A stretch of DNA of 64,000 nt from a bacterium. GTDB taxonomy: Bacteria > Elusimicrobiota > Elusimicrobia > Elusimicrobiales > UBA9959. The translations under genes and the position numbers were made by a program. The notes under the pieces were generated by a model. The model had not been told where the DNA came from and ran no database searches. It was given only the letters and a program-made list of their open reading frames with translations. Shown here in pieces: positions 7,121-37,510 of this stretch. The stretch covers positions 43,954 through 107,953 of the forward strand of contig JAJZPF010000005.1 of NCBI GenBank assembly GCA_021811315.1, in the 5' to 3' direction. Each line of letters starts with the position of its first letter. The stretch's first letter is position 1.

Positions 7121-8272
7121 ATGAAGAAACGGGACTGCTGCGAGATAATACTTAACCACGCCTGCGACCTGGGCTGCGCCTTCTGCTCTCAGGCCGACTT
7201 CGACCCTTCCGCCCTGATGAAGCCGGGCGAGGCGGTGCGGCATATCTACCGGGCCAAAAAAGAAGGCTTCAGCCGCCTTGGCTTCTCCGGCGGCGAAGCG
7301 CTGCTGCGCCGGGACCTGCCGCAGCTTGTGAAAGCCGCGCGGGAAGTCGGCTTCAAAGCGGTGCGCCTCCAGACCAACGGCCTGCGCCTCGCCTCGATGG
7401 CGGCCGCGGAAAAACTGGTTCGGGCCGGCCTCACCGTCTGCAAATTCACTTTCGCAAGCCATATCCCCAAGGTGCACGACCGCCTCGTCGGGAAGCCTGA
7501 AGCCTTCAAAAAAAGCCTGGCCGGGCTCTCGAACATGCTGAAACTTAAAGCGGCCGTCGGGGTGAACCTGCTGGTCACCAAGGCTACTTACCGGGCCCTC
7601 CCGGAAACGCTGAAGTTCTTCATGGCTAAAGGCGTTTCGAATTTCGTGCTTATCTACCCGATACATACAGGGGCCATGGCCCGCTCCCCGGCGCTGCGGA
7701 TCAGCCTTCCGGCGGCAGCGCCTTATATCGCCAAAGCCCTGCGCCTCGCCGCCGCTTCCGGCCTTGGCCGCGAGGTAAAGGCGCTGAACGTCCCGCCCTG
7801 CCTGCTACCGGGCTTCGAGAACATGGCCTCGGGCCTTTACCGCTTCAATACCGTGGTGGTTGCCGCCGACGGAGAGGCTCGCGACCTCGATTCCTCGGTG
7901 GCCGCGGCCAGGCGGCAGGGGCCGCCCTGCGCGCGCTGCTTCTTTAAAAAGACCTGCCGCGGCGTCGACCATAACTACCTGGCAATTTTCGGCTGGAAGG
8001 GTATTTCGCCCGTCAAAAGAAAACCCGGCCCCGCCCGCCTGGCCTCCGGCCCGTTCTTTACGAACAGCGAGAAATGCTTCCTGGAACTCCTGCGCGGCGG
8101 AAAAGCGCGCGCAACTGCCGAACTCCTGCGGGCGGCCAAAAGCGTACCGCTCTGCTATGATTGCTCCGATGGTTCGAATGTAATGACCACGGGGACGGCG
8201 CTGATAAAAAAAGGGCTGGTGACCCGCGCTTTGCGCGGCGGAATTTATTTTTGGAGCCTTAAGCATGCTTGA
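7121..8272 (+). CDS. Radical SAM protein with C-terminal winged-helix-like extension
   Basis: HACDLGCAFCSQ, GFSGGEALLRRDLPQL; C-term CYDCSDGSNVMTTGTALIKKGLVTRALRGGIYFWSL shared with 27818-29011. Confidence 0.85.
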   Translation: MKKRDCCEIILNHACDLGCAFCSQADFDPSALMKPGEAVRHIYRAKKEGFSRLGFSGGEALLRRDLPQLVKAAREVGFKAVRLQTNGLRLASMAAAEKLVRAGLTVCKFTFASHIPKVHDRLVGKPEAFKKSLAGLSNMLKLKAAVGVNLLVTKATYRALPETLKFFMAKGVSNFVLIYPIHTGAMARSPALRISLPAAAPYIAKALRLAAASGLGREVKALNVPPCLLPGFENMASGLYRFNTVVVAADGEARDLDSSVAAARRQGPPCARCFFKKTCRGVDHNYLAIFGWKGISPVKRKPGPARLASGPFFTNSEKCFLELLRGGKARATAELLRAAKSVPLCYDCSDGSNVMTTGTALIKKGLVTRALRGGIYFWSLKHA

Positions 8273-9566
8273 AGAACTCCTCCGGGCCGCCGGTGAAAGC
8301 GGCCTTGAACTGGACGTGGACCGGCGCGCCCGGGAATTTAAAATCGCGTTTAAACCCGGCGCGGCCCCGGGCAAAGCGCGCCCCGTAGTTTATCCGCTCC
8401 TGGCCGCGCTGGAGGATAATTTCCTGGTAACGGTAAGCGGGGCGCCGGCCTGCCTGATGCCCGACGCCTTCGAGCATTTTAGCTGGCCGCTGGGGGCGAA
8501 GGGCCCTTTCAGGCGCGTTAAAGCCTGCCGCCTCTGCGCCCTCAGCGGGCGCTGCCCCGGGGTGAACCTGGCCTGGACCAAGGCAGCCGGGCTTTTAAAC
8601 CCGGTGCTTCCGGCCCCGGCTGAACTCGTGATAGAACTGAACAAGAACTGCAATTTGGCCTGCAGGGCCTGCTTCGGACGCGGCGGCGAGGAACTCCCTC
8701 TGAAAACTGCGGAGAAAGCCCTGCGCGAGGCCGCCGCGCTGGGCGTGAAAAGCGCGCGCTTCACCGGCGGCGAGCCGCTGCTATACCCCGGCCTTGAAAA
8801 ATTGCTGCGCCTCGCGCGAAAGCTGGGATTTTACACGCTGCTGAACACCAACGCCGTATTGTTCTCCCCGGCCGTCGCCCGCCGCCTCAAAGGGCTCGTC
8901 GACAACGCGCTGGTCTCGCTGCCCGGCGTGGATGAAGCGGGGCACGCGGCCGGCTCCGGGATGGCCGGGCAGTTCGGCCGGAAGACGGCGGCAATAAAGC
9001 GGCTGCGCTCTTCGGGAGTAAAAGTTTTAAGGGCAGGCACGGTCGTTTCAAAGCCGCTTTTAAACGATTTCAGCCGCTGGCATAAAGCCGTACGCCGGCT
9101 CGGCTTCGACATCTGGGAACTTTACAGGCCGATGATGACCGGCAAGGCCCTGGCCGCCGCCGCGGAATTCAAGATTTCCAGGAACGATCTTATAAACCTG
9201 GCGAAAAGAACAGCGGCCCTGGAACCAGGGCGGCCCAGGACCGTACTTGCCAACCCCGTACCGTACTGCGCAATTCCGGCGGCGGCCAGGCCCTTCGCCC
9301 TCGGGGCCCGCTTCGACGACGGCTGGACCAGGCTGGTGCTGGACGCTTCCGGGGTTTACAAACCCAGTTATCCCTCGGCGCAATTCCTCGGCAAAACGCT
9401 GGCCGGCGCCTGGGCGCACCCTTTCCTTAAAAAGACGCGGGCGGCGGCCTGGCTCCCGGCGAAGTGCCGCCGCTGCGGCATGCTTTCAGCCTGCCTTGGC
9501 GGCAGCCGCTTCCAGGCCGAAGCCGCCGGCGATATTTTCGGCGCCGACCCGTGGATGGCAGGATGA
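8265..9566 (+). CDS. Radical SAM protein with SPASM-like C-terminal cysteines
   Basis: NKNCNLACRACFGRGGE, RFTGGEPLLYPGL, C-terminal CRRCGMLSACLGG; additional N-terminal CRLCALSGRCPG. Confidence 0.8.
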   Translation: MLEELLRAAGESGLELDVDRRAREFKIAFKPGAAPGKARPVVYPLLAALEDNFLVTVSGAPACLMPDAFEHFSWPLGAKGPFRRVKACRLCALSGRCPGVNLAWTKAAGLLNPVLPAPAELVIELNKNCNLACRACFGRGGEELPLKTAEKALREAAALGVKSARFTGGEPLLYPGLEKLLRLARKLGFYTLLNTNAVLFSPAVARRLKGLVDNALVSLPGVDEAGHAAGSGMAGQFGRKTAAIKRLRSSGVKVLRAGTVVSKPLLNDFSRWHKAVRRLGFDIWELYRPMMTGKALAAAAEFKISRNDLINLAKRTAALEPGRPRTVLANPVPYCAIPAAARPFALGARFDDGWTRLVLDASGVYKPSYPSAQFLGKTLAGAWAHPFLKKTRAAAWLPAKCRRCGMLSACLGGSRFQAEAAGDIFGADPWMAG

Positions 9567-17072: not shown

Positions 17073-19163
17073 ATGAGACATTTTCTTCTGATGATCCCGG
17101 CGCTTTTTTCAGCGCTCCTTTGCCCGCCCCGCGCCCTTGCGGCCGGGCCGGACGCCGGGATGCGGGATTATTACTGCGACGACGTGAAAAAGCCTTTCTT
17201 CGCCGAGGCTCCGGGAGAAAAAGGCGGGTTCGTGCTCCGGAGGACGGGCGCCCTGCCCGACGCTTTCATGATGCCCAAGCCGGCTGGAACGAAGCGCGTG
17301 TTCGTAGTAGGAGAATCGGTAGCCGCGCTGCTCGGGCCGGGTACGGCGTTGTCCTCCGGGAGGATAAAAAAAGAGGGCTTGCTCAGGAACATGCTCGGGA
17401 AAAGCGCCGCCGGAGACAACTCCGGGATAGAAATAATCAACTGCGGCATGGGCGGCTATGAAAGCTACAGGATCTACGGCGTGCTGGAAGAGGCGCTTAA
17501 ATACAGCCCTGACCTGGTGGTGGTGCTCAGCGGCAACAACGACACGCAGGAAGAGTCCTGCCCCGGGCTCGAGTGCGAGCTGCGCCGGCGCAAGTTCCGC
17601 CTCTTCGAAAAATATTTCTCCCTAAGCGGCGCTCCCCGGGAGGCCGTTAAGAAAGCGTCGCTGAAAATGCATGAGGCCATGCTGCTGAAAATGGGCGCGG
17701 CCGCGAAGAAAGCCGCCGTCCCCATAGTGTTCTGCACCCTGCCCGCGGCCGTCAGGGATATGCCGCCGCGCCAGCCCGCGCCCCTCGAGAACAAGTTTTT
17801 CGCGGCCGGCTACAGGCTTTTTTACGCGAAAAAGACCGCCGGGGCGCTTGAGAAATTCAAGCTCGCGCTCGCCGCCGGCCCGCGGGAGCCTTTTTCCAGC
17901 TTTTACGCGGCCAAAGCCCTGGAGCAGCTGGGCCGTGAAAAAGAGGCCGCCGCCTATTACGCCAACGCGCTTAATTTCGACCCGGCAATGTCGCGGGCCG
18001 GCCGGGAGCGCAACGACCTGATACGCCGCGCGGCCTCCGTGAAAGGCGCCTGCGTGGCCGACCTGGAAAAGCTTTTCCAGGGGATTTCCCCGGGCGGGCT
18101 TCCCGGGTTCGAGGACTTTACCGACGGGATGCACTGGAACTTCCCCCACGACAAGGAAGTCTGGGAGGAGATCTTCCGCTCCGCCGGCCGCTGCGGGATA
18201 AAGGGCTTTGAAAAATTCACCGCCGGGCCCCCCTCCCAATGGGCAGAAACCTCCAGCGGGACCGCCCTTAAACGGCTCGGCTACGCCTTCTCCTGGCTGG
18301 ACGAAAGGGACTTCAACGAAGCGAGCCTGGCGGAACTGGCGCGCATTAAAAAGGAGCAGCCGGAACTGCTGGAAAAGGCGGGCTCAGCCCCGGCGCAGCT
18401 TGAAAAGCTGCTCATCAACAACCTTTGGTCCGCCGACAGGATCAAGCGTTTAAAGGATATCTACCCCTTCTTCCTGGCGCACCTGGCCGAAACGGAAAGG
18501 CGCGCTGGCAATTACGCCAAGGCGCTTTCACTGAGCGATAAAGCCCTGGCGCTGAAGCCGGGACACCCGCTGCTGAGGCTGGGCAGGGTCCAGGTCGTAG
18601 CCGATATGGGCGGCAAAGCGGAGGACGAATTTATGGCCCTTTCCCGGGAGCGCTCGCTCAACGGCAAGGCCGCGGCGCTCGCGGCCGCCTACGGCTTCAC
18701 GAACGCCGCGGCCCCGGCGCCCGGCCGCGGGGCTTCTTCCGGCCCGGAGCCGGCCTCCAAGGAGAACGTCGAGTTATCCAAAAGATTATCCGATCAGGCG
18801 GTCGACAAGATCTTCGCCAAGGACTTCAAGGCCGCCGAAGAACTTTCCGGCAAGGCCGTGGAGAAGAACCCTTTCAACTCCGAGGCCCTGATGAGCCTGT
18901 GTTATCTGCGCCGGAAGGACGGGCGTACGCTGCTGGCGCTCGAGGCCTGCAAAAGAGCCTCCGCCTCCGTTTATCAGGACCCGGCCAACCAGATCCCTTC
19001 GCTGGAAATCCTGTCCTGCGACGCCGCTTTCGAAAGCTACAAGATGCTCAATGAGCTCGGCCGCGGACCCGAGGCGGCCGCCGTGCTCGAGCAATGCGTA
19101 AAAAGGGCCCCCGCCTCCTGGCCGGGACTGGACGCGGCCAAAGCCGCTTTAAAAGCGCGCTGA
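17073..19163 (+). CDS. SGNH/GDSL-hydrolase-like secreted protein with TPR repeats
   Basis: Signal peptide; RVFVVGESVAALLG, NCGMGGYESYRIYGVLEEALKYSPDLVVVLSGNNDTQE; repeated TPR-type helices. Confidence 0.65.
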   Translation: MRHFLLMIPALFSALLCPPRALAAGPDAGMRDYYCDDVKKPFFAEAPGEKGGFVLRRTGALPDAFMMPKPAGTKRVFVVGESVAALLGPGTALSSGRIKKEGLLRNMLGKSAAGDNSGIEIINCGMGGYESYRIYGVLEEALKYSPDLVVVLSGNNDTQEESCPGLECELRRRKFRLFEKYFSLSGAPREAVKKASLKMHEAMLLKMGAAAKKAAVPIVFCTLPAAVRDMPPRQPAPLENKFFAAGYRLFYAKKTAGALEKFKLALAAGPREPFSSFYAAKALEQLGREKEAAAYYANALNFDPAMSRAGRERNDLIRRAASVKGACVADLEKLFQGISPGGLPGFEDFTDGMHWNFPHDKEVWEEIFRSAGRCGIKGFEKFTAGPPSQWAETSSGTALKRLGYAFSWLDERDFNEASLAELARIKKEQPELLEKAGSAPAQLEKLLINNLWSADRIKRLKDIYPFFLAHLAETERRAGNYAKALSLSDKALALKPGHPLLRLGRVQVVADMGGKAEDEFMALSRERSLNGKAAALAAAYGFTNAAAPAPGRGASSGPEPASKENVELSKRLSDQAVDKIFAKDFKAAEELSGKAVEKNPFNSEALMSLCYLRRKDGRTLLALEACKRASASVYQDPANQIPSLEILSCDAAFESYKMLNELGRGPEAAAVLEQCVKRAPASWPGLDAAKAALKAR

Positions 19164-19202: not shown

Positions 19203-21728
19203 ATGGAAAGCATAGTCTTTTTCGGAAAAGGCGGCATAGGCAAGAGCACCATAGCCGCCAATATCTCCGTGCTGTTCGCCGCGAAGGGCAGGAAGGTCCT
19301 TCACGTCGGCTGCGACCCGAAGATGGATTCCACGCTTTCGCTCATGGGGCGCCGCATACGCCCTTTCAACGACCAGGGAGGCTCCGACGAGGAAGCCCTG
19401 CGCCGGTCGCTCCACCGCTCGATCAAAGGCATAGACTGCATCGAGGCCGGCGGCCCCCAGGCCGGGGTCGGCTGCGCCGGCGCCGGCATAGGCGCGATGC
19501 TCGACGCGATCAAGGACTCCGCGCTGATAGAGAAAGAAGGCTACGACACGGTGGTCTTCGACGTCCTCGGCGACGTGGTCTGCGGCGGTTTCGCCGCGCC
19601 GCTGCGCCGCGGTTTCGCGAGCAAAGCCATCCTCGTCGTCTCCGAGGAGCTCCTCTCCCTTTACGCCGCGAACAATCTTATCTCGATGGTGAACAATTAC
19701 GCCAGGAACGGGGTGTTCCTGGCAGGCCTGGCCGTCAACGCCAAGGACCAGGCCGCCGTCAGGCTGGCCCACGATTTCGCGCGCGCCGCGAATACGCGGG
19801 TACTGGGCGTGATACCGAGGGACCCGGCGGTCACAAGGGCGGAAAAAGCCCGCAAGCCGGTGGTCGCGCTCGAGCCGCGCAGCGAAGCGGCCAAAAGCCT
19901 GGCGCGCCTCGCCGCGGAGATAGCCGCGGCCGGCATCCCCTCCTCGCCGCCGCGGATGCTGGGCCCGGCCGAGTTCGAGGCTTTCATGGACGACAGGCCG
20001 GTCAAGCCGGAAGGGAAGAGCGCCGGGCCCGCCGCCAGCCCCGCCGTCAAAAAAAACAAAGTCGCCTCTTCGGCCCTGCTCGAGAGGTCCGGCTTCAGCA
20101 TGACCGGCGTGGCCGGGGGACAGGTGGTCTGCTCCTGGAAAGGCGGCGGCACGACTTTCAGGCTTTTCATCGCCCCGGAGTCCGACTCCAGGCCGGGCAT
20201 GTCCGCCATAGGCGACTGGGCTTTCTGCTTCCTGCCGGGAGAGGAGCCCCCCTCCGACATTTCCCGCGAAGGCTTCCACGCCGCGCTGAAAGAGATCTCC
20301 ACCCTGCGCTTCGACGATTTCATCTCCGCCTTCAGCGGCAAGCTGGATTTTTACGAGAACGTGGATTCCTTCGGAAAAGGCTCCTCTCACCCGCTCATGC
20401 CGGAAGGAGACAAGCCGGAGGAGCCCTACATAGGCTTCGGGCAGTGGCAGCGCTTTCTCTTTTCCGACAGTTCCGGCATCTGCGTGCCTCCGGGCTCGGT
20501 GATGGTGGAGCACGGCGATAACGAGTGCCGCTTCAGCAGCTGCTCCCAGACCCCGCTGAGCACTTTCCAGAAAATAGCGGGGCTCGCCAACGATTCCACC
20601 CCCTCCCTCGCGCCGCTCCTCCCCAAGGAGGATCACATGATAGTCAATACCGATTTCCTTTACGAGGACGCCGTCAAAGGCGACGAGAAAAAGATAGCCG
20701 GCACCCTGGCGGCGGCGGCCGCGCGTACCGGCCCGGGCGGGCTGATCGAGTTTTACAGCGGCTGCGCCCCCCTCATCCTGGCCAGCGACGTCGCCTCGTT
20801 CAGCGATAAGGTCGCCCGCGACCTGGGCGTGGAAGTTCTGCGGGAGAACTTCAACAGCTTTTACTCGCAAACCCCGGAGAAGGTGCGGGCCCGCTCCGCT
20901 TTCGTGGCGCGCAGGCTGGCCGCGCTCGGGCGCGTGAAGCCGGCGCAGGACGTGAACCTGATAAATTTCGGCAGCTCGCGCGAGCCGCTTACCGCCCTGC
21001 TGGCCGCCAAGGGCCTGGCCGTGAAGGACTGGGACACCGAGTTCTACAAAGATATCGCTTCCGCGCGGCTGCAGGTCCTGTCTTCCGCCGACCCGGTGCT
21101 GACCGGGGCTTTCGACAAGCTAGGGATAAAATGGACGGCCCCGGGCGCGCCCTACGGCTTCGCGGCCACGAAGGCCTGGCTGCGCGCGCTGTTCGCCGCC
21201 CTCGGCAGGAAAAGCCCCCCCGAAGGCTTCGGCCCCTCCAGGAAGGAGTCGGCCGCCCACGCCGCGGCGGCAAAAAAGCTTTCCCGCTTCGCCGCCGGCT
21301 TCGTGGCCTCGCCCGGGGAATTCGGCATGCTGGAAGGGACCTGGGCCGTCTCCGGAGTTCCGCTTATTTCTTTTCTTTCCGAGTCCGGCCTGGCCCTCAG
21401 GCTTTTCGTCCACGCCGCGGGTCCCGAAATAAAAGCCCTCGCCAGGACCGAAGCCGCCGCCCTCGCCGCCAAAACGGGGACGAAGCCGCGGCTGGCTTTC
21501 TTCGACAGCCCCGGCGCGCTTTTAAAGACGCTGGCCGCCGACCGCGCCCTCCGCCTGGTCTATTCGGACATCCCCCTCGACCCGCGGCTGTCCGCGGCAG
21601 GGAAAAACTCTTTTTCGGTGGCGGTCTGCGAGCCCGGCTACGAGGGCGCCCTGGAAACCCTGCGCAGGCTGGCGCAGCTTTGCGAATGGGATTTCAATGA
21701 AAGATATTACTTCACAAAAAGCGTTTGA
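19203..21728 (+). CDS. NifH-like Fe protein fused to nitrogenase component-1-like domain
   Basis: FFGKGGIGKSTIAANIS, HVGCDPKMDSTLSL, GPQAGVGCAGAGI, VFDVLGDVVCGGFAAPLR; C-term RFSSCSQTPLSTFQKIAG, IEFYSGCAPLILASDVASFSDKVARDLGVEVL. Confidence 0.85.
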   Translation: MESIVFFGKGGIGKSTIAANISVLFAAKGRKVLHVGCDPKMDSTLSLMGRRIRPFNDQGGSDEEALRRSLHRSIKGIDCIEAGGPQAGVGCAGAGIGAMLDAIKDSALIEKEGYDTVVFDVLGDVVCGGFAAPLRRGFASKAILVVSEELLSLYAANNLISMVNNYARNGVFLAGLAVNAKDQAAVRLAHDFARAANTRVLGVIPRDPAVTRAEKARKPVVALEPRSEAAKSLARLAAEIAAAGIPSSPPRMLGPAEFEAFMDDRPVKPEGKSAGPAASPAVKKNKVASSALLERSGFSMTGVAGGQVVCSWKGGGTTFRLFIAPESDSRPGMSAIGDWAFCFLPGEEPPSDISREGFHAALKEISTLRFDDFISAFSGKLDFYENVDSFGKGSSHPLMPEGDKPEEPYIGFGQWQRFLFSDSSGICVPPGSVMVEHGDNECRFSSCSQTPLSTFQKIAGLANDSTPSLAPLLPKEDHMIVNTDFLYEDAVKGDEKKIAGTLAAAAARTGPGGLIEFYSGCAPLILASDVASFSDKVARDLGVEVLRENFNSFYSQTPEKVRARSAFVARRLAALGRVKPAQDVNLINFGSSREPLTALLAAKGLAVKDWDTEFYKDIASARLQVLSSADPVLTGAFDKLGIKWTAPGAPYGFAATKAWLRALFAALGRKSPPEGFGPSRKESAAHAAAAKKLSRFAAGFVASPGEFGMLEGTWAVSGVPLISFLSESGLALRLFVHAAGPEIKALARTEAAALAAKTGTKPRLAFFDSPGALLKTLAADRALRLVYSDIPLDPRLSAAGKNSFSVAVCEPGYEGALETLRRLAQLCEWDFNERYYFTKSV

Positions 21729-23010
21729 AAAAACCTACCAGCTTCCTTACCTGCTGGGCGTCTTCCTGAGCCTCAACGCCGTCAGCGACGCCTGCCTCAT
21801 GGTGGACGGCGCGAACTGCGTCATGGTCAAAGCCGACCTGATAGCCGGCAACCACGACCTCTTCTCCACTCTTTTATCCGAATCCGGCCGGCACCGCATC
21901 ATCTGCACGATGTGGACGCCCGTAAATCCCCCCAAGAACCCGGAGAAAAAGCTCGGCGCGATGCTCAACAGCGTGGCAGGCTCCGGGCAGTTCGGCGCGG
22001 TGCTCCTGACCGGCCTCCCTTACTGCTGGCTGGCCGGGATGGACTATGACGGCGTAGCGCGGGCCGTCTCCTCCAAAGCGCCGGTGGCGGCCATACCGGC
22101 CAAGTCGATGGATTCGGACTGGCTGGAAGGCTATGACCTGACCCTGGAGGCGCTCGCCCGGGCCATACCGGAGAGGAAGCCCGGGAAACGCGCCAAAAAT
22201 AAAGTCGCGCTGGTCGGCTATATGTTCGACAGGAACGAAAGCGACCATGCGGCTAACTTGAAAGAACTTACCCGGCTGCTGAGAATTTCCGGGCTCGACG
22301 TAGTTTCTATCTGGCCTTCCGGCGGAACCGTCGCCGAGCTGGCGCGCGTGTCCGAAGCCTCCCTTATCGTTTCCCTGCCCTACGGCAGAAAAGCCGCCAA
22401 AACCCTGGCCCGTAAATACGGCTGCGAACTCCTCGAGACCGGCCTGCCTATGGGGCTGAAAGGGACCTCCTCCTGGCTGGCCGCGGTCCGCCGCGCGGCG
22501 GGCCTGCCGGGCGCCCTGCCCCGGGAGATCCTGGTGGAAGAGCGGGAAGCCGCCAGGACCATAGCCCCGGCGCTTCGCGCCCTCCTCCACAAAAAGCTGA
22601 TGTTCGCCGGGGACCCTTACCTTTATTCCGCTTTCGCTTCTTTCGCGGCCGAGCTGTGCGCGACCCTGCCGCTGGTCTTCCTGGACTCCTCCAGGCGCCC
22701 GCTTGGCGCCGGGGCGGCGGAGGGGAGCGTTCTCTTCGCGCCGTCCACCGAGGACGCCAAAGCCGCCAGGAAAGCCCTTTCACGCTATCAAGCGCCGAAC
22801 CTTGCCGTCGTCAATTCTTTCGCGCTTACCGAAGGTTTCGCGGACGGGCTCCCTTTCGTGGAATTCGGCTTTCCGTCTTACGGGCACCACTGCCTTCTGG
22901 ACGAGCCCTATTTCGGTTTCAGCGGCGCCCGGGCCCTGGCTTCGCGCATGCTGAACTCGCTGCAGACAAGGAGCAAGGCCAGCTCCTCGGGAGCGGACCG
23001 CTCGGCGTAA
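21697..23010 (+). CDS. Second nitrogenase component-1-like (NifD/K-like) protein
   Basis: QLPYLLGVFLSLNAVSDACLMVDGANCVMVKADLIAGNHDLF; overlaps the upstream fusion gene. Confidence 0.7.
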   Translation: MKDITSQKAFEKTYQLPYLLGVFLSLNAVSDACLMVDGANCVMVKADLIAGNHDLFSTLLSESGRHRIICTMWTPVNPPKNPEKKLGAMLNSVAGSGQFGAVLLTGLPYCWLAGMDYDGVARAVSSKAPVAAIPAKSMDSDWLEGYDLTLEALARAIPERKPGKRAKNKVALVGYMFDRNESDHAANLKELTRLLRISGLDVVSIWPSGGTVAELARVSEASLIVSLPYGRKAAKTLARKYGCELLETGLPMGLKGTSSWLAAVRRAAGLPGALPREILVEEREAARTIAPALRALLHKKLMFAGDPYLYSAFASFAAELCATLPLVFLDSSRRPLGAGAAEGSVLFAPSTEDAKAARKALSRYQAPNLAVVNSFALTEGFADGLPFVEFGFPSYGHHCLLDEPYFGFSGARALASRMLNSLQTRSKASSSGADRSA

Positions 23011-24131: not shown

Positions 24132-25322
24132 TTACAGGTACTGCGGGATAGCGGCGTAGAAAGCCGCGGCTTTCACCAGGTCCTCGGCCGGCATGAACTC
24201 GTTTACGGTATGGGCGTAAACTTCATTGCCGGGGCCGAAACCGATGGTCGGGATATTCAGGCGGCCGGCCGTGGCCACGCCGTTGGTGGAGAACACCCAT
24301 TTGTCCACCACGGGCGTCTTGCCCAGCGCGACCTTGCCGGCTTCCACGCCGGCTTTCACCAGCTTATGTCCGGCGGGCAGGACCCAGGTAGGGAAGTATT
24401 TTTCCTGGTCCACTTTCGCGCCGGTCCAGGCGACGGCATTGTACCAGAGCACTTCGACCCTGGCTTTGGCCTTCTTCACGGAAGGCAGGCGCTGTATCTC
24501 GGCCACCGAGCTCTTCAGGGTCTCGCCCAGGGTCAGGCGGCGGTCGAGGTAGATGGTGCATTCGTCGGGCACGGCGTTATAGGACGGGGTTTTGCACTCG
24601 ATACAGGTCACGGCCACGGAGCCTTTGCCGAGGAATTTGTCGGTCTTGAGCTTCTTGTTGATGGCGGTTATCTCTTTTACGATGTCCGACATCTTCACCA
24701 CGGCGTTATCGCCGCGCTCTGGGGCGGAAGCGTGGCAGGAGCGGCCCTTGGTGACGACCTTCATCTCCATCCGGCCGCGGTGGCCGCGGTAGACCTTGAG
24801 GTCGGTGGGCTCGGTTATGACGACGAAGTCGGGGCGGAGCTTCTCTTTATTGATGAGGTGGAGGAGCGGCAGCCCGTCGCAGTCCTCTTCCATCACGGAG
24901 CCTACGACCATGAGGGTGTAGTCGCCTTCGAGCTTGAGGTCCTTTATTATTTTACCGGCGTAGACCATGGAGGCCATGGAGAGCTTCTGGTCGGTGGCGC
25001 CGCGGCCGTAGATGGTGTCGTTCTTGTAGATGCCGGCGAAGGGGTCTATCTTCCAGGCTTTGGGGTCGCCGATGCCGACGGTGTCGATATGGGCGTCGAG
25101 CATGATCTTCTTTTTGCCGTGGCCGATGAAGCCGATGATATTGCCGATGGCGTCGATCCTTATTTTATCGAAGCCGACCTTGATCATCTCTTTCTTTATG
25201 AGTTCGACGAGCTTGCCTTCCTGGCAGGAAAAGCTGGGCGTGCGGATAATATTGCGCGCGAAAGCGACTATATCCTTCTTATATTTGTTTGCGGCCTGGC
25301 GAATCAATTCAGCGTTGTTCAT
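24132..25322 (-). CDS. YgeY-type M20 family metallohydrolase
   Basis: MLDAHIDTVGIGDPKAWKIDPFAG; GRGATDQKLSMASM; EEDCDGLPL; TEPTDLKVYRGHRGRMEM. Confidence 0.8.
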   Translation of the reverse strand: MNNAELIRQAANKYKKDIVAFARNIIRTPSFSCQEGKLVELIKKEMIKVGFDKIRIDAIGNIIGFIGHGKKKIMLDAHIDTVGIGDPKAWKIDPFAGIYKNDTIYGRGATDQKLSMASMVYAGKIIKDLKLEGDYTLMVVGSVMEEDCDGLPLLHLINKEKLRPDFVVITEPTDLKVYRGHRGRMEMKVVTKGRSCHASAPERGDNAVVKMSDIVKEITAINKKLKTDKFLGKGSVAVTCIECKTPSYNAVPDECTIYLDRRLTLGETLKSSVAEIQRLPSVKKAKARVEVLWYNAVAWTGAKVDQEKYFPTWVLPAGHKLVKAGVEAGKVALGKTPVVDKWVFSTNGVATAGRLNIPTIGFGPGNEVYAHTVNEFMPAEDLVKAAAFYAAIPQYL

Positions 25323-25734: not shown

Positions 25735-26985
25735 CTATCGCAAGAGCGAGAGGTATTGTTTGAGGGCTGAGATGAAGATCGCCGTGTCTTCGGGGGTGTT
25801 GTAGGCGAAGAAGGAAATTCTGATGGTCTCGCGGTAGCCGGAGGCGAGGCAGGCGAGGTCGGCGCAGTGGCGGCCGGTGCGCACGGCTATGAAGCGGCCT
25901 TTGAGCTGGTGGTTAAGGTAGAGGTTGAAGTCGGGGACGGAGAAGCCTTTTTTCAGCGGAACTATGGAGATAAGGGAGCCTTCCAGGAGATCCGCGCGCT
26001 CGCCGAGCACGCGCACGCCTTTTATCCCGGCCAGGCTCTTAAGAGCGTCATCAACAAGACCGGAGACATGCGCCCTTATGTTTTCGAAGCCGCACTTTTC
26101 AAGACGGGCAATAGCAGCCGCGAGCCCGGCCGCCCCGGAGCAGTTCTGCACCCCGGCTTCGAAGGCCTGGTAGTTGCCCAGGTATTTAACTTTATAGCGG
26201 CCCCCCGCCAGCGTAACGTCCGCAACCGTGCCGCCGCCCACCCGCCAGGGCCTGAGCTTGCCCAGCAGCTCCCTCTTCACATAAAGGGCCCCGGTAGCGT
26301 ACGGGGCTCCGAGCTTATGGCCCGAGAAAGCGCTGGCGTCCGCGCCGTAGATCGCGCCCCCCCCGCCGTGCGTAGGGGCGTACTGTGCGTCGTCCGCGAA
26401 AAGATAAGCCCCGGCCGCGTGCGCCAGGTCCGCCGCCGCGGCGATATCCGTCCGTCCGCCGAAAATATTCGAGGCGTGGGTAAAGCAGACAAGCGCGGTC
26501 TTAGGACCCAGCATTTTGCGGTAGGCTTCCAGGTCCGGCTTTAAGTTCTTAAGCGGGATTACCCGCAGCTTTATCTTCCCGGCGGAAGCCAGCCTTTCAA
26601 AAGGCAGGAACACGGCATTATGCTCCACCGGGGAAAGGATGACCTCGTTCCTTTTAGGCGAGAACGGGAAGGAATTAGCCAGCAGGTTCACCGCGTCGGT
26701 CACCCCGGCCGTGAAAATTATTTCCTCGGGCGAGCCCGCGCCCATGAAAGAGGCCACCCGGGAGCGCGCCGCGTAAAAGTTCTCTTCCATGGCCGCGGCC
26801 AGCGCATGCGAGGACCGCTTGCCGCCGCAGCCGCCCAGCTCCAGCATGTGCCGGCGCTGCTCGTCGGCGGCGCAGCGCAGTTTAAGCACCGTGCAGGCGC
26901 TGTCCAGGTAGACCAGGCGGCGGCCTTCGAAGCGCCCGCCCAGGGCGGGGAATTCTTTTTTCAGGGCGGCGATCTTTTCGTTCAT
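25735..26985 (-). CDS. Class V aminotransferase / cysteine desulfurase-like (SufS/CsdA type)
   Basis: VYLDSACTVLK; FSGHKLGAPYATGALYVK (PLP lysine); VRTGRHCADL. Confidence 0.8.
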   Translation of the reverse strand: MNEKIAALKKEFPALGGRFEGRRLVYLDSACTVLKLRCAADEQRRHMLELGGCGGKRSSHALAAAMEENFYAARSRVASFMGAGSPEEIIFTAGVTDAVNLLANSFPFSPKRNEVILSPVEHNAVFLPFERLASAGKIKLRVIPLKNLKPDLEAYRKMLGPKTALVCFTHASNIFGGRTDIAAAADLAHAAGAYLFADDAQYAPTHGGGGAIYGADASAFSGHKLGAPYATGALYVKRELLGKLRPWRVGGGTVADVTLAGGRYKVKYLGNYQAFEAGVQNCSGAAGLAAAIARLEKCGFENIRAHVSGLVDDALKSLAGIKGVRVLGERADLLEGSLISIVPLKKGFSVPDFNLYLNHQLKGRFIAVRTGRHCADLACLASGYRETIRISFFAYNTPEDTAIFISALKQYLSLLR

Positions 26986-27827
26986 AGTTTTTTATGCACC
27001 GCGATATAATCTTTCCGTGGCCCGGGACAAAGTTTTATGAACCGGCAATCCAGGCAGGGCTCGACCTGTTCTTTTTCTTCAAGATGCGGCCCTTTGACCC
27101 CGTCCCTCATTTTTACCATATCCACGTTCAGCGCGTAAAATTCACCGAGGAAGCAGGGCGGGATATGGTCGACTTCGCAGCGTATTTTATTCTCGCGGCA
27201 GATCGAAAGCGCTTTTTCCAGATAAGGCTTTACCGCCGCGTATTTCGGCAGGTATTTTTTCCCGCCGGCGCGGCCGAGGCCCTTTATATAGCTGAACTGC
27301 AGCCAGGCTATGCCCTTGAGGTTTTTTGCCGCATAAGCGGCGAAAGCGGGCAATTCTTTATAATTCAGCTCGCTGATAACATGCGTCAGCCTTACCGCGC
27401 CCCCCGCCCCGATAAGCCGCTTAACGCCGGCGAGCCTTTTTTCAAAGCCGCCGGGCGCCCTGGTCATCTTAAGGTCGAGGTCCGGAGTTGACGCCGGGAA
27501 ATTCACGTTGAAGTAACCGTTCGCCGCGTTAAGAGCCCGGACAATATTCTTTATTTCACCGCCCGGCAGCTCCGCCGCGGCCAAAGCGTTAGTCTGCAGC
27601 TCGGCCCGCCTGCCGAGTTTTTTTACCGCCGCCAGAAGAAGACAGAGGTCACGGGACCCGGCCAGCAGCGGCTCGCCGCCGGAGATCTGCACCAGCCCCG
27701 GCGGCATCAGTGTTATTTCTTTCAGCCAGCCTTTAAGCGAAACCCCGGCGTCCTCCCCGTCTTCCGCCGGGTAGGAGCAGAAAACGCAGCTCTGGTTGCA
27801 TTTACGGAAAAGGTGTATTAAAGCCAT
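26982..27827 (-). CDS. Radical SAM protein
   Basis: FRKCNQSCVFCSYPAED; QISGGEPLLAGSRDL; C-terminal CLDCRFIKLCPG. Confidence 0.85.
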   Translation of the reverse strand: MALIHLFRKCNQSCVFCSYPAEDGEDAGVSLKGWLKEITLMPPGLVQISGGEPLLAGSRDLCLLLAAVKKLGRRAELQTNALAAAELPGGEIKNIVRALNAANGYFNVNFPASTPDLDLKMTRAPGGFEKRLAGVKRLIGAGGAVRLTHVISELNYKELPAFAAYAAKNLKGIAWLQFSYIKGLGRAGGKKYLPKYAAVKPYLEKALSICRENKIRCEVDHIPPCFLGEFYALNVDMVKMRDGVKGPHLEEKEQVEPCLDCRFIKLCPGPRKDYIAVHKKL

Positions 27828-29011
27828 TTCTTCAACTCCGCATAGGGTTTAGCAAGGGACCAGCGGTAGATGCCGCTCTCGAAGCTGCTTTTTACCATGC
27901 CTTTGGAGATCAGGCTGGCGGCCGAGGTCAGCACGGCGTTCCCGTCCGAGCAGTCCCGGCACAGCACGATATTCCTGGAGAGCGCCAGGACCTCTTTGGT
28001 TGAGGCGCCGGCTTTCAGCCGCAATATCTCCACCAGGCATTTCTCATTGTCGGAAAGGTACACCCGTCCGGAAGCCGGCGCCTTTTTAACGGCGCCGGTC
28101 TTTTTAACGGGCTTGAAACCGGCCCAGCCGAAATTAGCTATATAATGCTCGTCGGCGCCGCGGCATTTTTTGTTCAGGGCGCAGGTCCGGCAGGGCTTGC
28201 CTTTCACCTTGGCCGCGTCGGCGTTCGCGTCCAGGTCCGTACGCCCGCCCAGCGGGTCCGTGACCAGCGTGTTAAAGTGGTCGAGGCCGATAGCCAGCTT
28301 CTCGCGGCCCTTAAGAAAACAGGGCGGAGCGTTCAGGAAAAGGATCTCCCTGGGCAGGCCGGCGGCTTCCATGGTCCGGACGGCTTCCTCGAAACAGGGT
28401 TCGCATTCAGGCAGGCTGACGCCCAGCTTTTTAGCATTGTCGGCCATAGCCCCGTTGTAGACCGGGTAAATTATCACGAAGTTGGTTATGCCGCGCCCGA
28501 GGTAGAATTTTATTATCTCCGGCAGGCGCTTATAGTTAAGCCGGTTCACCAGGATATTGGTTCCGAGCCGCACCTTCAGTTTCCGCAGGTTTTCCAGACC
28601 CGCGAGTGCTTTCTTTAAAGCGCCGGGAACCCCCACCAGCGCGTCGTGGTCCGCCGCTTTATCGGTAGTGAAAGAGAATTTGCAGAAAGTCAGCCCCGCC
28701 TTCACCAGGGCGCGGCAGAAAGCGGGGTCCGCCAGCTTTATCCCGTTGGTCTGAACGCGGATGAACCGGAAGCCGACCGATTTTCCCAGGGCTATCGCCT
28801 TGAGGATGTCCGGGCGGATCAGGGGTTCGCCGCCGGTAAAACCGAGGCGGCGGTAGCCGTTCTTATAAGCCGAATAGATATTGCGCGCGATAGCGTCGAA
28901 AGGGGCGTTGAGCGATTTATCGAAGTCGCCCTGCGAGCAGAAACCGCACCGCGCATTGCAGTTATAGTTCAATATCAGCTCGTAGCATTTGCCGCTGGCT
29001 TCCTGTTTCAT
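27818..29011 (-). CDS. Radical SAM protein with C-terminal winged-helix-like extension
   Basis: NYNCNARCGFCSQGDF; GFTGGEPLIRPDIL; C-term CRDCSDGNAVLTSAASLISKGMVKSSFESGIYRWSL. Confidence 0.85.
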   Translation of the reverse strand: MKQEASGKCYELILNYNCNARCGFCSQGDFDKSLNAPFDAIARNIYSAYKNGYRRLGFTGGEPLIRPDILKAIALGKSVGFRFIRVQTNGIKLADPAFCRALVKAGLTFCKFSFTTDKAADHDALVGVPGALKKALAGLENLRKLKVRLGTNILVNRLNYKRLPEIIKFYLGRGITNFVIIYPVYNGAMADNAKKLGVSLPECEPCFEEAVRTMEAAGLPREILFLNAPPCFLKGREKLAIGLDHFNTLVTDPLGGRTDLDANADAAKVKGKPCRTCALNKKCRGADEHYIANFGWAGFKPVKKTGAVKKAPASGRVYLSDNEKCLVEILRLKAGASTKEVLALSRNIVLCRDCSDGNAVLTSAASLISKGMVKSSFESGIYRWSLAKPYAELKKWL

Positions 29012-29026
29012 AATTATTTGCCGGAA

Positions 29027-30082
29027 TTATTCTGCTGAATAATTCGCCCGCATAGCTCGCGGGGTTTTACCCCTGGCTACACCCCTTCGGACATTTCGCG
29101 CATAGCGCTCAGTCCTCAACCCGCTTTGCGGGGAACCCTGCGCCTTTTTCGCGGGGTTCGGGATAACCGCCTTCAGCTCGGCGTCGCCGTAATTCTTCAG
29201 GTACTCGACCCAGATCCCCTCGCAGGCGGAGTAAAGGCGGCAGCCGCGGCAGCGGGCCGTCTTTTTGCGGGCGACCCTGGAGCGGGAACCGATGGCGTCT
29301 TTATTAAAGAAATCCGGGGCCCAGTGCTCGGTCAGGAAGAGCTCGCGCTCGTTGATCTCGCTTATCTGGCCCAGGCAGCTCTTGAAATGGCAGAGCGGCA
29401 CGTAGCGGGCCTTCCACTGGTCCAGCCCGGCGGCGCGCCCGAGGGCGAGAGCGCGGCGCATATGCGGCGCGGCTTTGGAGATGCGCGGGACGAGCCCTTC
29501 GAAATCGTTCCTGGCCCCGCCGTAATTCGGGTCGACGAAGATATACTCCACGTTGCGGATCCGGTTCTTTATATAGAACTTAGCGAGCGCGGACAGGCCG
29601 GCCATGTTCTGCTTCACCACGGTGGTATTCCCGCTGATCCGCTCGAAGCCCAGCGCGCGCAAATTCTTCAGGCCTTTTTTGAGCTGCGCGAAGCTGCCGG
29701 GCGCGCGGGTGAGCGAATCGTGGGTGCGGGCGTCCGGGCCGTGCACCGAAAAAATTAGTGAGTCTATGCCGGAGCGGATCATCTTTCGCGCCGCGGCGGG
29801 ATCGGCGAAGACGCGGCCATTAGTGGCGCAGCTGACCTGGGGTATGCCGAGCTTCTTAGCGGCGGCCACGACGCGGTTGAAATCGGGGCGGATGGTGGCC
29901 TCGCCGCCTATTATCTCAAGTATGTGGGCGCCCCTGGTTTTCGCGCGCAGAACTTCGCGCAGCAGTTCGGCCGTAGTCTTCTGCGGATAAGCCCGCTTAT
30001 CCGCGTCGATACAGAAAGCGCAGTTATTATTGCAGGCGTACCCCGTAAAGAGGACGATCTTAAGTTTCTTTTCTTCTTTCAT
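29027..30082 (-). CDS. Radical SAM protein with atypical repeat-derived C-terminal tail
   Basis: GYACNNNCAFCIDADKR; EIIGGEATIRPDF; CRGCRLYSACEG; expected terminus GDAELKAV is followed by a palindrome-rich tail. Confidence 0.85.
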   Translation of the reverse strand: MKEEKKLKIVLFTGYACNNNCAFCIDADKRAYPQKTTAELLREVLRAKTRGAHILEIIGGEATIRPDFNRVVAAAKKLGIPQVSCATNGRVFADPAAARKMIRSGIDSLIFSVHGPDARTHDSLTRAPGSFAQLKKGLKNLRALGFERISGNTTVVKQNMAGLSALAKFYIKNRIRNVEYIFVDPNYGGARNDFEGLVPRISKAAPHMRRALALGRAAGLDQWKARYVPLCHFKSCLGQISEINERELFLTEHWAPDFFNKDAIGSRSRVARKKTARCRGCRLYSACEGIWVEYLKNYGDAELKAVIPNPAKKAQGSPQSGLRTERYARNVRRGVARGKTPRAMRANYSAE

Positions 30083-30088
30083 GCGATG

Positions 30089-31240
30089 CTACCTGAAAAA
30101 GCCGACGATATTCCTGTCCAGCACGAGCAGGAGGGCCGCGCCGGCGAAGATCCAGAGGGCGAAGGGGCGGCCTTTGATCACTTCCACTTTCGGGTCCGGC
30201 ACCGTCAGTTTCTTCATCCACTCTTTGACCGCCGCCACCTGCTCTTCCGTCAGGCCGTCCTTGAAGCAATCCTCGAACAGCTCCGTATAATCCGGGTTGG
30301 CCTTGATAGAGCGGCAGGCCTTGGTGGAAAGAAGCAGGCCCGGCTCCAGCTCGGCGGCGGTCAGGTACTGCGTGTCCTTTCTTTCCATCAGGAATTCAAG
30401 CATGAACCGGCCGAAGAAAAGAAGCAGGCCGAGCTTCAGCAGATTGGTCCCGGCCGTGACGGACATATGCCAGAGCCGGTCCGGGAACATGAAATAGCCG
30501 GCGAAAAAATAGGCCAGGTAGCAGGCCGAGCTGATATAGGTCCAGTTGCGGCTGCGGAACATTTCCCCCACTTTATCCCAGAGTATGAAGAGGAAGAAAA
30601 AAAGAAGGTCGGCCCGCGAAAAGAAATGACTGATAAAACCCCGGGCTTCCATCGAAAGCACCTGCTGGAGCAGGAACAGGAAGCCGATGTTAAGCGCCGC
30701 GGCCGCTATCGCGAACATATTCTTGCCGCCGGCCATGTCCGCAAGGCGCTTTTTCACGTCCGTCCACATCTCCGAGAAAAAGTCGGACGGGGAAGCCGAG
30801 GCGAAACCAGAGGCGATATGGCTGCCCACCGCCCAGAGCGCGGCCGAGACGAAAATATTTATGAGCAGGCTGAGGAAAAGGAAGGCCGGGAAATTTTTCA
30901 GGGAGGGGTTGGCCAGCGGCAGGGCCGCCGAGACCAGGATAAAGAACTTCGCGTCCCCGGCGGGCCAGACCTCGGCGTACCAGAGTATTATCCCGGCCAG
31001 CGCCGACCAGAAGAAGTGCTGGCAGAAAAGCCAGTAGAAGTTCGCGACCAGGAAGCTCTGCGCGCGGCCGGCGTAGCCCATCCAGGTATAAAGCCCGAAT
31101 ACGGCCAGCCCCGCCGCAAGCAGCCTGAAACCGTCCATTATGCTTGCATTGGTGATCTTGCGCGTGGCCATATCCCTGCTTACCACCGAGACGGCCCAGG
31201 CGGTGAACCCGGCGAGGAAGAGCATCGAGATATACTTCAT
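30089..31240 (-). CDS. A24 prepilin-peptidase-like polytopic membrane protein
   Basis: SVVSRDMATRKITNASIMDGF and EVWPAGDAKFFILVSAALPL resemble the two-aspartate motifs (D..xxKIPN and GxGDxK); multiple TM segments. Confidence 0.6.
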   Translation of the reverse strand: MKYISMLFLAGFTAWAVSVVSRDMATRKITNASIMDGFRLLAAGLAVFGLYTWMGYAGRAQSFLVANFYWLFCQHFFWSALAGIILWYAEVWPAGDAKFFILVSAALPLANPSLKNFPAFLFLSLLINIFVSAALWAVGSHIASGFASASPSDFFSEMWTDVKKRLADMAGGKNMFAIAAAALNIGFLFLLQQVLSMEARGFISHFFSRADLLFFFLFILWDKVGEMFRSRNWTYISSACYLAYFFAGYFMFPDRLWHMSVTAGTNLLKLGLLLFFGRFMLEFLMERKDTQYLTAAELEPGLLLSTKACRSIKANPDYTELFEDCFKDGLTEEQVAAVKEWMKKLTVPDPKVEVIKGRPFALWIFAGAALLLVLDRNIVGFFR

Positions 31241-32133
31241 TTTTTCACCGGCTTCAGCTCGGCGTCCCCGAACATTTTTTCATATTCAAGCATCAGCCCC
31301 AGGCATTTTTTCTTAAGGACGCAGCGCCCGCATTTTTTCGCGGGATAAACCCTGTCTTCCGGGGGCAGCGTGATCCAGCAGAGCGGCCGCAGCTCCTTCC
31401 TGACCAGGCAGAGCGGGAAATGGTAGAGGCGGAAATCCTTGAACCGCCGGATAAGCGGCAGGCAGCCGCCGAGTATCGCGGCGGATTCCGACAGTTTAAG
31501 GGCCAGTTTCCGGTGGTTCGCCAGCGACATTCCCTCTATCTCGTAATGTATCGCGGTCACGCCGTAGGCCGAAGTATCCGGAAAAGTCTTAAGCAGGAAT
31601 TCCAGGGTTTCAGGAAGGGCCGCCGCGCTTTTTTTGTGGATGACGAGCCGTATCTCCACCCGGGGGCCTCCTGGCGCGGAAAGCAGGTTCCTCAGCCCTT
31701 TGACGGTCTGGGAGAAGCTGTTTTTTACGCCAGCGACAGCCTCGTGGATCCTGGCCGAAGGACCGTGCAGGGCTATCGCCACGGAAAAAGGCGGCTTGGC
31801 CACGGCGCGGAATTTTTCCGCGAACTCGGCATTGGCGAAGCGGCGGCCGTTGGAAAGAAGCGTTATCGGCACGCCGGGCAGGCGCGTCCTGAAGTAGGAA
31901 AGCAATTTAAAAAAATCCGGGTGCAGGGTCGGCTCGCCGCCGGTCAGGCTGACGAAGTCGGCGCTGCCGTCGTTCTTCAGGTAGACCGGCCCCAGCCCCT
32001 TGAGGTAGCGCTCCAGCTTCCCGATCTGGCCTTTAAGCGCGTAATGAGCCGCGGGCTGCCGCGCGAAAGCGGGCAGATTGGTGCACATCACGCATTTATT
32101 ATTGCACTTGTTCCAGAAAGGGATATCGGGCAT
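31237..32133 (-). CDS. Radical SAM protein, HxsC-like
   Basis: FWNKCNNKCVMCTN; SLTGGEPTLHPDF; LLSNGRRFAN; HYEIEGMSLANHRKL; LYHFPLCLVRKELRPLCW; CGRCVLKKKC. Confidence 0.75.
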   Translation of the reverse strand: MPDIPFWNKCNNKCVMCTNLPAFARQPAAHYALKGQIGKLERYLKGLGPVYLKNDGSADFVSLTGGEPTLHPDFFKLLSYFRTRLPGVPITLLSNGRRFANAEFAEKFRAVAKPPFSVAIALHGPSARIHEAVAGVKNSFSQTVKGLRNLLSAPGGPRVEIRLVIHKKSAAALPETLEFLLKTFPDTSAYGVTAIHYEIEGMSLANHRKLALKLSESAAILGGCLPLIRRFKDFRLYHFPLCLVRKELRPLCWITLPPEDRVYPAKKCGRCVLKKKCLGLMLEYEKMFGDAELKPVKK

Positions 32134-33050
32134 CAGCGTTTAGCGGCGGGCGCCTTTCCTTTTACCGGCTTGAATTCGTCCCAGCCGTAGAGCCCGGGGT
32201 ATTCGCGCCAGGGGCCTTCGCAAAGCTTGAACCAGCGGCAGGGGCGGCATTCTTTGCGCTTCGCCTTCCCCTCGTCGCGGCGGTAATCGCCGTAGCTCTC
32301 GATATAGAAATCGGCGTCGGAAACCGGGCCTTCGGGAATGACCCGCTCGGCCACGCAGTCCTCGTAACCATTCATCAGGCAGAAAGGGATAGCTTCCGTA
32401 TAACCGGCCACGCCGCCTTCGCGGCCGGCGTCCAGCGCTTTTTTCAAATAAGGCATCACCGCGGTTTTTTTCGGCGCGAGCGTCTTCCGGTTTTCCCAGG
32501 CCGAGCCGACCAGGTGGACGTAGGCGAACTGGAACTGGTTGACCTTGAGCCGCACCAGCAGCCTCGCCAGCTCGGGGAGGTCTTTGTAGTTCACCGAGGT
32601 GATCACGGAATTGGTCAGGACGTACATCCCGAGTTTCTTGCAGTTGAGGATGCCGCTCACGACCTCTTTGAAGCTGCCCTCGGCCCGCGTCAGCTTCTCA
32701 TGGATCTCCGGCGTGGAGCCGTGCAGGGAGGGCCCCATCTCGGTCACGCCGGCGTTTTTGAGCTCGAGGCAATAATCGTAATAGGCGAAGCGGCGCCCGT
32801 TGGTCTGCACCTGCACGCTTTCGTAGCCCATGGCCCTGGCGGCGCGCACCGCGGCCGGGAGGTCCGGGTGCAGCGTGGGCTCGCCGCCGGTGAAGACGGC
32901 GGCGCTTACGCCCTGTTTTTTGGCGCGGGCCAGGTCGTCTTTGATCTGCTTCAGGCTTTTCCGGCCGACGCGGCTGCGCTTGCCGCCCTGCGCGCAGAAA
33001 TCGCACAGGTTGTTGCAGTTGAAGCCTATTTTTATGTCGATGCGTTTCAC
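32133..33050 (-). CDS. Radical SAM protein
   Basis: GFNCNNLCDFCAQGGKR; VFTGGEPTLHPDL; CRPCRWFKLCEG. Confidence 0.85.
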   Translation of the reverse strand: MKRIDIKIGFNCNNLCDFCAQGGKRSRVGRKSLKQIKDDLARAKKQGVSAAVFTGGEPTLHPDLPAAVRAARAMGYESVQVQTNGRRFAYYDYCLELKNAGVTEMGPSLHGSTPEIHEKLTRAEGSFKEVVSGILNCKKLGMYVLTNSVITSVNYKDLPELARLLVRLKVNQFQFAYVHLVGSAWENRKTLAPKKTAVMPYLKKALDAGREGGVAGYTEAIPFCLMNGYEDCVAERVIPEGPVSDADFYIESYGDYRRDEGKAKRKECRPCRWFKLCEGPWREYPGLYGWDEFKPVKGKAPAAKR

Positions 33051-33057: not shown

Positions 33058-33927
33058 TTATTTGGGCGCGCCCGTCTTCCCCATCAGCTTGCGGACCCGC
33101 TGGTTTATCTCTTCCGTTATCTTTTCGTTCTCCAGCCGGCGCCGCTCGGCCTCGGCTTTATCGTCTTCCTTTTTTTTAAGGGCCGCTTTCACTTCCTCCG
33201 GGGAGAAACCGGCGTAGCCGCCGGCCCTTTTCTGCGCTTTGGCCAGGAAGCCGCAGTACGAAGATTCCAGTTTCGTCAGCAGCGCGGAACAGGAGGCCTC
33301 GGACCTGGAGAGGTAGGCGGAGCAAAGGGCGTTCCGGTCCGCCGGGCAGCCGCCCGCGCTGACCGCTTTGCTGGACGCGTCCAGAAAATATTGCGAGCAT
33401 TTATAATTGGGGCTTTTCAGCAGCGGCACGTCGGTCCTTCCGCCGCGGCTTTCCCCCGGCAGGTAATTGCAGAAGGACGGGTCGCGGCGCGCCAGCGCCG
33501 CGCAGGAAAGGTATCTGGCGAGCAGGTCGTAGGTCTCCTCGTTGTCGGCGCCGGTGAAAGACCCGTAAGGCGCCAGGTAGCCCCAGATGCGCCCGTGCGC
33601 GGAGAAGATCTCGTTCAGCGACCCGCCCTTGCACGGGCCGCCGTCATAGAGCTTGTTCTTTATGGTGAGAAGCGCGCCGTAAGTGGAAGGGGCGGCGGAC
33701 TTGGAAGGGACGGAGGCGAGGTCCCCGGGGATAGAATAAAAAGTGGCGCCGCCGGGAAGGGTCGCGGGGCCGGGAGGCTGGGCGATAGCGGGCAGGGGAG
33801 CGCCGCCCGTCTCCGGCAGCGCGGAAGGGAACCCGGGGTTCCCGAAGAAAGCTTTACGCTGCTGGTACTTGATTCCGGCGGCGAAAGCGAGGAGCAGCGC
33901 GGCGGCGAGGATCAACCATTTTTTCAT
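33058..33927 (-). CDS. Membrane-anchored Cys-containing protein, paralog of 12762-13895
   Basis: MKKWLILAAALLLAFAAGIKY; CKGGSLNEIFSAHGRIWGYL; GYAGFSPEEVKAAL...EINQRVRKLMGK. Confidence 0.75.
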   Translation of the reverse strand: MKKWLILAAALLLAFAAGIKYQQRKAFFGNPGFPSALPETGGAPLPAIAQPPGPATLPGGATFYSIPGDLASVPSKSAAPSTYGALLTIKNKLYDGGPCKGGSLNEIFSAHGRIWGYLAPYGSFTGADNEETYDLLARYLSCAALARRDPSFCNYLPGESRGGRTDVPLLKSPNYKCSQYFLDASSKAVSAGGCPADRNALCSAYLSRSEASCSALLTKLESSYCGFLAKAQKRAGGYAGFSPEEVKAALKKKEDDKAEAERRRLENEKITEEINQRVRKLMGKTGAPK

Positions 33928-36206: not shown

Positions 36207-36268
36207 ACGGAACTCCTTGGACTTAGAACGGCCGCCGGCCACGGGGCGCGGGAGCCTGAAATTTAAGG

Positions 36269-37505: not shown

Positions 37506-37510
37506 CGGTT

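Follow-up and report, generated by a model that had tools for sequence, protein, structure and literature searches.

A fused nitrogenase-like reductase in a His-Xaa-Ser radical-SAM gene island of an Elusimicrobiota bacterium, a candidate for a role in peptide maturation

We analyzed a 64,000-nucleotide stretch of contig JAJZPF010000005.1 from an Elusimicrobiota bacterium (the whole stretch is called the window below), which carries a gene encoding a NifH-component 1 fusion protein, followed by a gene encoding a second component-1 subunit. Judged by its domain scores and Fe-protein residues, this pair belongs to the predicted reductases of the nitrogenase superfamily. The pair lies within a 40-kb island (1-41 kb of the window) of the His-Xaa-Ser type, with twelve radical S-adenosylmethionine (SAM) genes. 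We propose, with a probability of about 0.5, that the pair is a low-potential reductase, driven by ATP and equipped with one iron-sulfur cluster, that acts in the maturation of a His-Xaa-Ser peptide. In favor of this proposal, the reductase motifs are invariant, three cysteines are invariant or nearly so, and the genes co-occur and co-locate with those of HxsB and HxsA; the cluster type, electron flow and substrate described below are those that we infer. The His-Xaa-Ser radical-SAM cluster is the main functional clue and was not part of an earlier interpretation made from the DNA letters alone (the sequence-only reading). The family itself has very probably been published already; what is new here is that it is associated with the maturation of His-Xaa-Ser peptides. 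The pair is organized as follows.

19203 to 21728, plus strand: fusion gene, consisting of a NifH domain, a linker, an accessory domain and a nitrogenase component-1 (D-like) domain (open reading frame, Pfam, alignment)
19203 to 19976, plus strand: NifH (Fe-protein) domain, residues 1-258 (Pfam PF00142, alignment, Foldseek)
19977 to 20066, plus strand: linker, residues about 259-288, variable and rich in Pro, Ala and Lys (alignment; predicted local distance difference test score below 50 at 270-285)
20067 to 20441, plus strand: accessory domain, residues about 289-413, without a family match (predicted model, similarity search)
20442 to 21725, plus strand: component-1 (D-like) domain, residues 414-841 (Pfam PF00148; hhalign to NifD, E=2e-7)
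20526 to 20528, plus strand: codon of the invariant Cys442, in NECRFSSC, aligned to the P-cluster Cys of the NifD HGPVGC motif
20763 to 20765, plus strand: codon of the invariant Cys521, in FYSGC, aligned to the P-cluster Cys of the NifD TCPVGLIGDD motif
21697 to 23010, plus strand: partner component-1 subunit (K-like), 437 amino acids (Pfam, structure search)
21817 to 21819, plus strand: codon of the K-side Cys41, near-invariant (59/61 K-like rows)

The fusion gene is one open frame of 841 amino acids that starts with ATG and has no internal stop. Fer4_NifH matched residues 3-249 (220.8 bits, Pfam cut-off 25) and Oxidored_nitro matched residues 432-691 (41.0 bits, cut-off 28.6); in the partner, whose frame shares 32 bases with that of the fusion, Oxidored_nitro matched residues 111-422 (130.7 bits). 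Thus, the single reading frame with NifH and component-1 regions, and the overlapping NifD/K-like gene, were as the sequence-only reading had described them. Of 31 other genomes sampled from the same genus, 16 encode the whole fusion at 43-93% identity, and it recurs in further Elusimicrobiota genera and families; it is therefore not an assembly error. A frameshift missed between two frames, which the earlier reading had raised against itself, was likewise rejected, as was a chimera, since the fused frame is kept across many species. The accessory domain is common to fused and unfused D-like proteins.

In the NifH domain, the cluster cysteines C91 and C127 and the nucleotide residues K9, K14, D38, K40, D42, D120 and D124 were invariant among 19 aligned fused homologues. 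The motifs quoted earlier (the P-loop, CDPKMDST, GVGCAGAG, DVVCGGFA, RFSSC and FYSGCAP) were all found. Within the quoted component-1 motifs, invariance was limited to C442 and C521, and the last Cys of RFSSC proved not to be invariant. The Arg of GCAGRG, previously noted as Ala here, is replaced by A, T, V, L or M in the fused copies of this bacterium's family (f1). Most fused copies of another family, f15, retain this Arg, which rules out its loss as a result of the fusion.

The best sequence match of the NifH domain in the PDB was 9fmg_D, MarH (E=3.6e-49), of the methylthio-alkane reductase Mar (PMC12552129). A Foldseek search with the 841-residue model gave target-based template modelling (TM) scores, TMt, of up to 0.90 to MarH and NifH, covering only the NifH half among the matches listed. 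The best NCBIfam match was CfbC (217.8 bits, below its cut-off of 402), followed by the nifH equivalog TIGR01287 (213.7 bits, below 394); the BchL equivalog scored 168.5 bits, also below its cut-off of 345. A phylogeny, proposed as a check by the sequence-only reading, was computed for the NifH domain with one Mar and one Nfl reference and without CfbC. In this tree the NifH, Mar, Nfl, BchX and BchL references formed a cluster (93/87) to the exclusion of the Elusimicrobiota sequences; the short fusions of genomes G018 and G156 were weakly placed.

Within the D-like domain, only C442 and C521 were invariant cysteines (58/58 rows of an alignment in which a few rows are duplicated). The K-side C41, at DG(x)NC, probably occupies the site of the NifK P-cluster Cys and the BchB Asp, a register for which the hhalign output gave no confirmation. 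The D-like profile aligned in hhalign to NifD alone, and no alignment was obtained with BchN, BchY or Sporomusa NflD. The predicted fold of the partner is near that of NifK and BchB (TM 0.77-0.81; BchB 0.80), and its scores against BchN (63.9 bits, cut-off 420) and BchB (46.2 bits, cut-off 490) were both below cut-off. Together, C442, C521 and C41 would provide three cysteine ligands for one small iron-sulfur cluster.

These results bear on two explanations drawn from better known enzymes. A nitrogenase, or its decaying remnant, would share the fold and the Fe protein with the pair; nevertheless, the P-cluster ligands are reduced, no ligand of the Cys275 type that binds the iron-molybdenum cofactor (FeMoco) is conserved among the D-like rows, and no nifB scored over cut-off in the bacterium's own genome (63% complete) or in 40 relatives. 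The lack of a recognizable nifB, first remarked upon within the window, thereby extends, at the level of cut-off scores, to 41 genomes. Further, decay is at odds with motifs that are invariant across many species. We give this explanation a negligible probability. The earlier view that the enzyme reduces a substrate other than N2 gains support from the lack of a nifB over cut-off and of a conserved Cys275-type ligand and from the position of NifH outside the references. The second explanation, in which the pair is of the Mar/Isr type (group IV Nfl), reduces methylthio-alkanes or sulfonates and, together with a radical SAM partner, scavenges sulfur, is very improbable. It draws on the MarH match and on the pairing of Isr with a radical SAM enzyme (PMC11423573); however, Mar holds a P-cluster and [Fe8S9C] (PMC12552129), where here two D-side and one K-side Cys are kept, no nifB scored over cut-off, and in the tree the NifH domains do not group with Mar, Nfl and NifH.

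The island around the pair contains the following genes of the His-Xaa-Ser type and other radical SAM genes.

12357 to 12683, minus strand: HxsA4-type precursor peptide with a (Ser-His-Gly)n core (NF038313, 91.2 bits, cut-off 55)
14036 to 15442, minus strand: HxsB radical SAM/SPASM maturase (TIGR03978, 431.5 bits, cut-off 370)
34298 to 35761, minus strand: second HxsB (TIGR03978, 480.2 bits, cut-off 370)
35727 to 36242, minus strand: HxsD-like protein (TIGR03976, 25.1 bits, below cut-off)
33975 to 34301, minus strand: second, weak HxsD-like protein (TIGR03976, 18.8 bits, below cut-off)
26982 to 33050, minus strand: HxsC-like radical SAM run with CxxxCxxC (26982-27827, 27818-29011, 29027-30082, 31237-32133 and 32133-33050)
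5146 to 11225: other radical SAM genes (5146-6921, 7121-8272 and 8265-9566, plus strand; 10260-11225, minus strand)
38269 to 39189, plus strand: radical SAM gene (PF04055, 54.3 bits)

The best NCBIfam relatives of the HxsC-like run, where scanned, were HxsC4 and HxsC, all below cut-off. With HxsB and HxsA over cut-off and HxsC and HxsD below it, the cluster is, as far as profile scores tell, a divergent variant of the His-Xaa-Ser system.

A search of the phylum with the partner profile gave strong matches (E <= 1e-60, also applied to HxsB) in 46 genomes of the families f1, f12, f14 and f15. HxsB was present in 45 of these 46 carriers and in 47 of 295 non-carriers (p=4e-29, a value that is inflated by the kinship of the genomes and to that extent weakens our proposal); within f15 alone, it was present in 19/20 carriers and 9/23 non-carriers (p=1e-4). 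In about 11 of the 46 carriers, by a descriptive count from listed coordinates, a paralog gene lies approximately 10 kb or less from HxsB on the same contig. Locus L100 (genome G150) carries on one strand the partner, the fusion, HxsD, HxsB, two genes and HxsA, and L153 (G231) has a single-strand run of D, K, one gene, HxsD, HxsB and HxsA; in G228, G200, G230 and G155, paralog and Hxs genes are close neighbors. The matching records comprised Elusimicrobia metagenome-assembled genomes and two Deltaproteobacteria. Both deltaproteobacterial carriers have HxsB, one as two contig-end pieces and the other in a run of HxsD, HxsB and an HxsA with a (GSH)n sequence, accompanied by radical SAM genes.

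Several observations weigh against a role in this pathway. The pair and HxsB were on separate contigs in 10 of the 17 carriers of the genus, and in four genomes the pair adjoins infC-rpmI-rplT-pheST. HxsA is nearly universal in the genus (17/17 carriers versus 12/15 non-carriers, p=0.09), and since HxsB and HxsA occur without the pair, the pair is optional. Further, a relation of the accessory domain to other proteins of the cluster was searched for and none was detectable; in particular, the idea that the D-like protein shares this domain with the radical SAM enzymes was dropped after a similarity search without a significant match. In another explanation, the product or substrate of the pair is a small-molecule cofactor or metabolite that has nothing to do with HxsA, and the co-location reflects a shared radical-SAM island. 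In its favor, the pair is portable, with positions beside infC-pheST and elsewhere, and many f15 genomes are multi-copy; their K-like matches, as many as seven in one genome, lie among radical SAM genes and often away from HxsB. This explanation appears rather doubtful when set against the co-occurrence with HxsB, both phylum-wide and across phyla, and the single-strand runs with HxsDBA.

Reduction of a tetrapyrrole to a novel cofactor is a further explanation. The relatives dark-operative protochlorophyllide oxidoreductase (DPOR), chlorophyllide oxidoreductase (COR) and CfbCD use tetrapyrroles, CfbC is the top NCBIfam match of the NifH domain, many nearby radical SAM genes weakly match NirJ/Ahb, and hemC is present in nearly all f15 carriers and in six carriers of the genus. 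The proposal has also been repeated, with reference to work of 2020, for a "group VI" homologue that may take part in modifying tetrapyrroles (PMC11257099). We searched for hemB in all 61 relatives and for hemC in a draw from the phylum. Both were missing from at least nine fusion carriers (G002, G008, G009, G011, G013, G017, G025, G026 and G031), which include genomes that are 99, 95, 93, 92, 91 and 90% complete; a tenth carrier, G028 (97% complete), lacked hemB in the hemB search. Within the genus, hemB did not track the fusion (6/17 carriers, 5/15 non-carriers). Therefore, de novo tetrapyrroles are not needed in those nine carriers and a tetrapyrrole is not a general substrate, although salvage in them is possible. 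We consider this explanation unlikely.

For the reductase of His-Xaa-Ser maturation that we favor, the following mechanism can be drawn. The pair would work as an ATP-dependent two-component reductase whose Fe protein forms one chain with the catalytic subunit of the D side. Its NifH domains would pair, bind ATP and deliver electrons, by way of the C91/C127 [4Fe-4S] cluster, to a single iron-sulfur cluster with ligands from both sides, C442 and C521 of the D-like domain and C41 of the partner. With no FeMo-type cofactor involved, this second cluster would reduce a substrate bound in the component-1 pocket. The substrate would most likely be a radical-SAM-modified form of HxsA, or a unit for attachment to HxsA, such that the pair would carry out the reductive step of maturation. 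We suggest more tentatively that the tethered-Fe-protein reductase has the ribosomal His-Xaa-Ser peptide itself as its target and reduces, for instance, a His or Ser that a radical SAM enzyme has modified; it would then be the first nitrogenase-type enzyme in the maturation of a ribosomally synthesized and post-translationally modified peptide, and ribosomal peptides would join small molecules and tetrapyrroles as objects of nitrogenase-type chemistry.

Free NifH was found within the genus only in G018, which also holds an unfused D-K-NifH set, and the fused NifH domains must therefore normally pair with one another; f15 has both fused and free NifH. Because 16 of the 17 carriers of the genus show no free NifH, the two docking sites of a tetramer would have to share a single NifH pair. 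In such a heterotetramer, the two tethered NifH domains could meet across the complex and alternate between its two halves, or several complexes could join up in chains. A tethered Fe protein thus challenges the usual dock-and-release cycle.

Other features were observed at these loci. In the f15 and f14 loci L086-L094 and L105, component-1 D-K pairs form arrays, several to a genome, that are set among radical SAM genes. The D-K pairs outnumber the NifH genes there, and a single Fe protein may be shared by several catalytic units. A NodU-type carbamoyltransferase lies near D-K pairs in L088 (3453-5162; f15 Elusimicrobiota) and, by sequence only, in L135 (4100-5182; a deltaproteobacterium). Locus L161 of the deltaproteobacterium M1802 encodes at 4306-4617 an HxsA-like precursor whose (GSH)n core is unbroken and follows a different leader. 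In the window, a GDSL/TPR protein (17073-19163), which recurs near several fusion copies, is encoded immediately upstream of the fusion. The fusion locus is flanked by a carbamoyltransferase (15714-16904) and an M20-type hydrolase (24132-25322), which we take to be possibly YgeW and YgeY. Cys-rich proteins with a hydrophobic N-terminal stretch (12762-13895 and 33058-33927), with no match in Pfam or NCBIfam, adjoin HxsA and HxsB, and relatives adjoin HxsA in L038 and L055. An ApbE protein is encoded downstream of the pair in the island, which also holds UbiU-like U32 proteins; the U32 proteins at 1760-5141 and 39190-40962, each adjoining a second gene without a family assignment, are possibly oxygen-independent hydroxylases. 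A Barstar-like protein adjoins a protein with a Pfam "Ribonuclease" match at 37113-38071, and this gene pair recurs near HxsB in L055 and, judged from sequence, in the G018 locus (L051).

Comparison with known systems separates the pair from each of them. A N2-fixing nitrogenase was rejected on the TIGR01287 score, the incomplete set of P-cluster and FeMoco cysteines and the lack of a nifB over cut-off in the genomes searched. DPOR (BchL-BchNB) is similar in combining an Fe protein with a heterodimeric component 1, probably one small iron-sulfur cluster and a BchB-like partner fold. However, in DPOR the ligands are three Cys of BchN and an Asp of BchB, whereas here they would be two D-side Cys and one K-side Cys; there is no tie to chlorophyll genes, and the BchL, BchN and BchB scores are all below cut-off. 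CfbCD was rejected because the CfbC score is below cut-off and a K-like partner gene adjoins the fusion, whereas component 1 of CfbCD is homodimeric. MarHDK and IsrBHDK are similarly nitrogenase-like and associated with radical SAM enzymes, and MarH is the nearest PDB sequence, but the conserved ligands for the P-cluster and [Fe8S9C] are absent here and the NifH domain lies outside the Mar/Nfl clade (one reference each).

A fused nifH/nifE annotation in Ca. Methanomassiliicoccus intestinalis was mentioned in passing and without analysis (PMC4153887); it is also a NifH-component-1 fusion, but archaeal and from a single genome. Among Hxs systems (HxsA/B/C/D; TIGR03978, NF038313), we know of none described with a nitrogenase-like reductase, and a literature search found none; the window has HxsA4 and HxsB over cut-off together with HxsC- and HxsD-like genes. 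The pair very probably belongs to the published Elusimicrobiota nitrogenase paralogs, "group VI", with which it shares the Elusimicrobiota lineage and the co-location with radical SAM genes. Meheust and colleagues reportedly described these paralogs in 2020 as two clades, mainly from groundwater, with many radical SAM neighbors, and are said to have proposed the reduction of a tetrapyrrole to a novel cofactor. Whether group VI, assumed here to be the same group, has an active-site cluster is debated (PMC12176620), and our proposal, if true, would provide a concrete pathway for a paralog group whose function and active-site cluster are under debate. Compared with this group, the pair is alike in phylum and radical SAM neighbors and differs in its fusion architecture, its His-Xaa-Ser link and its occurrence in carriers without hemB and hemC.

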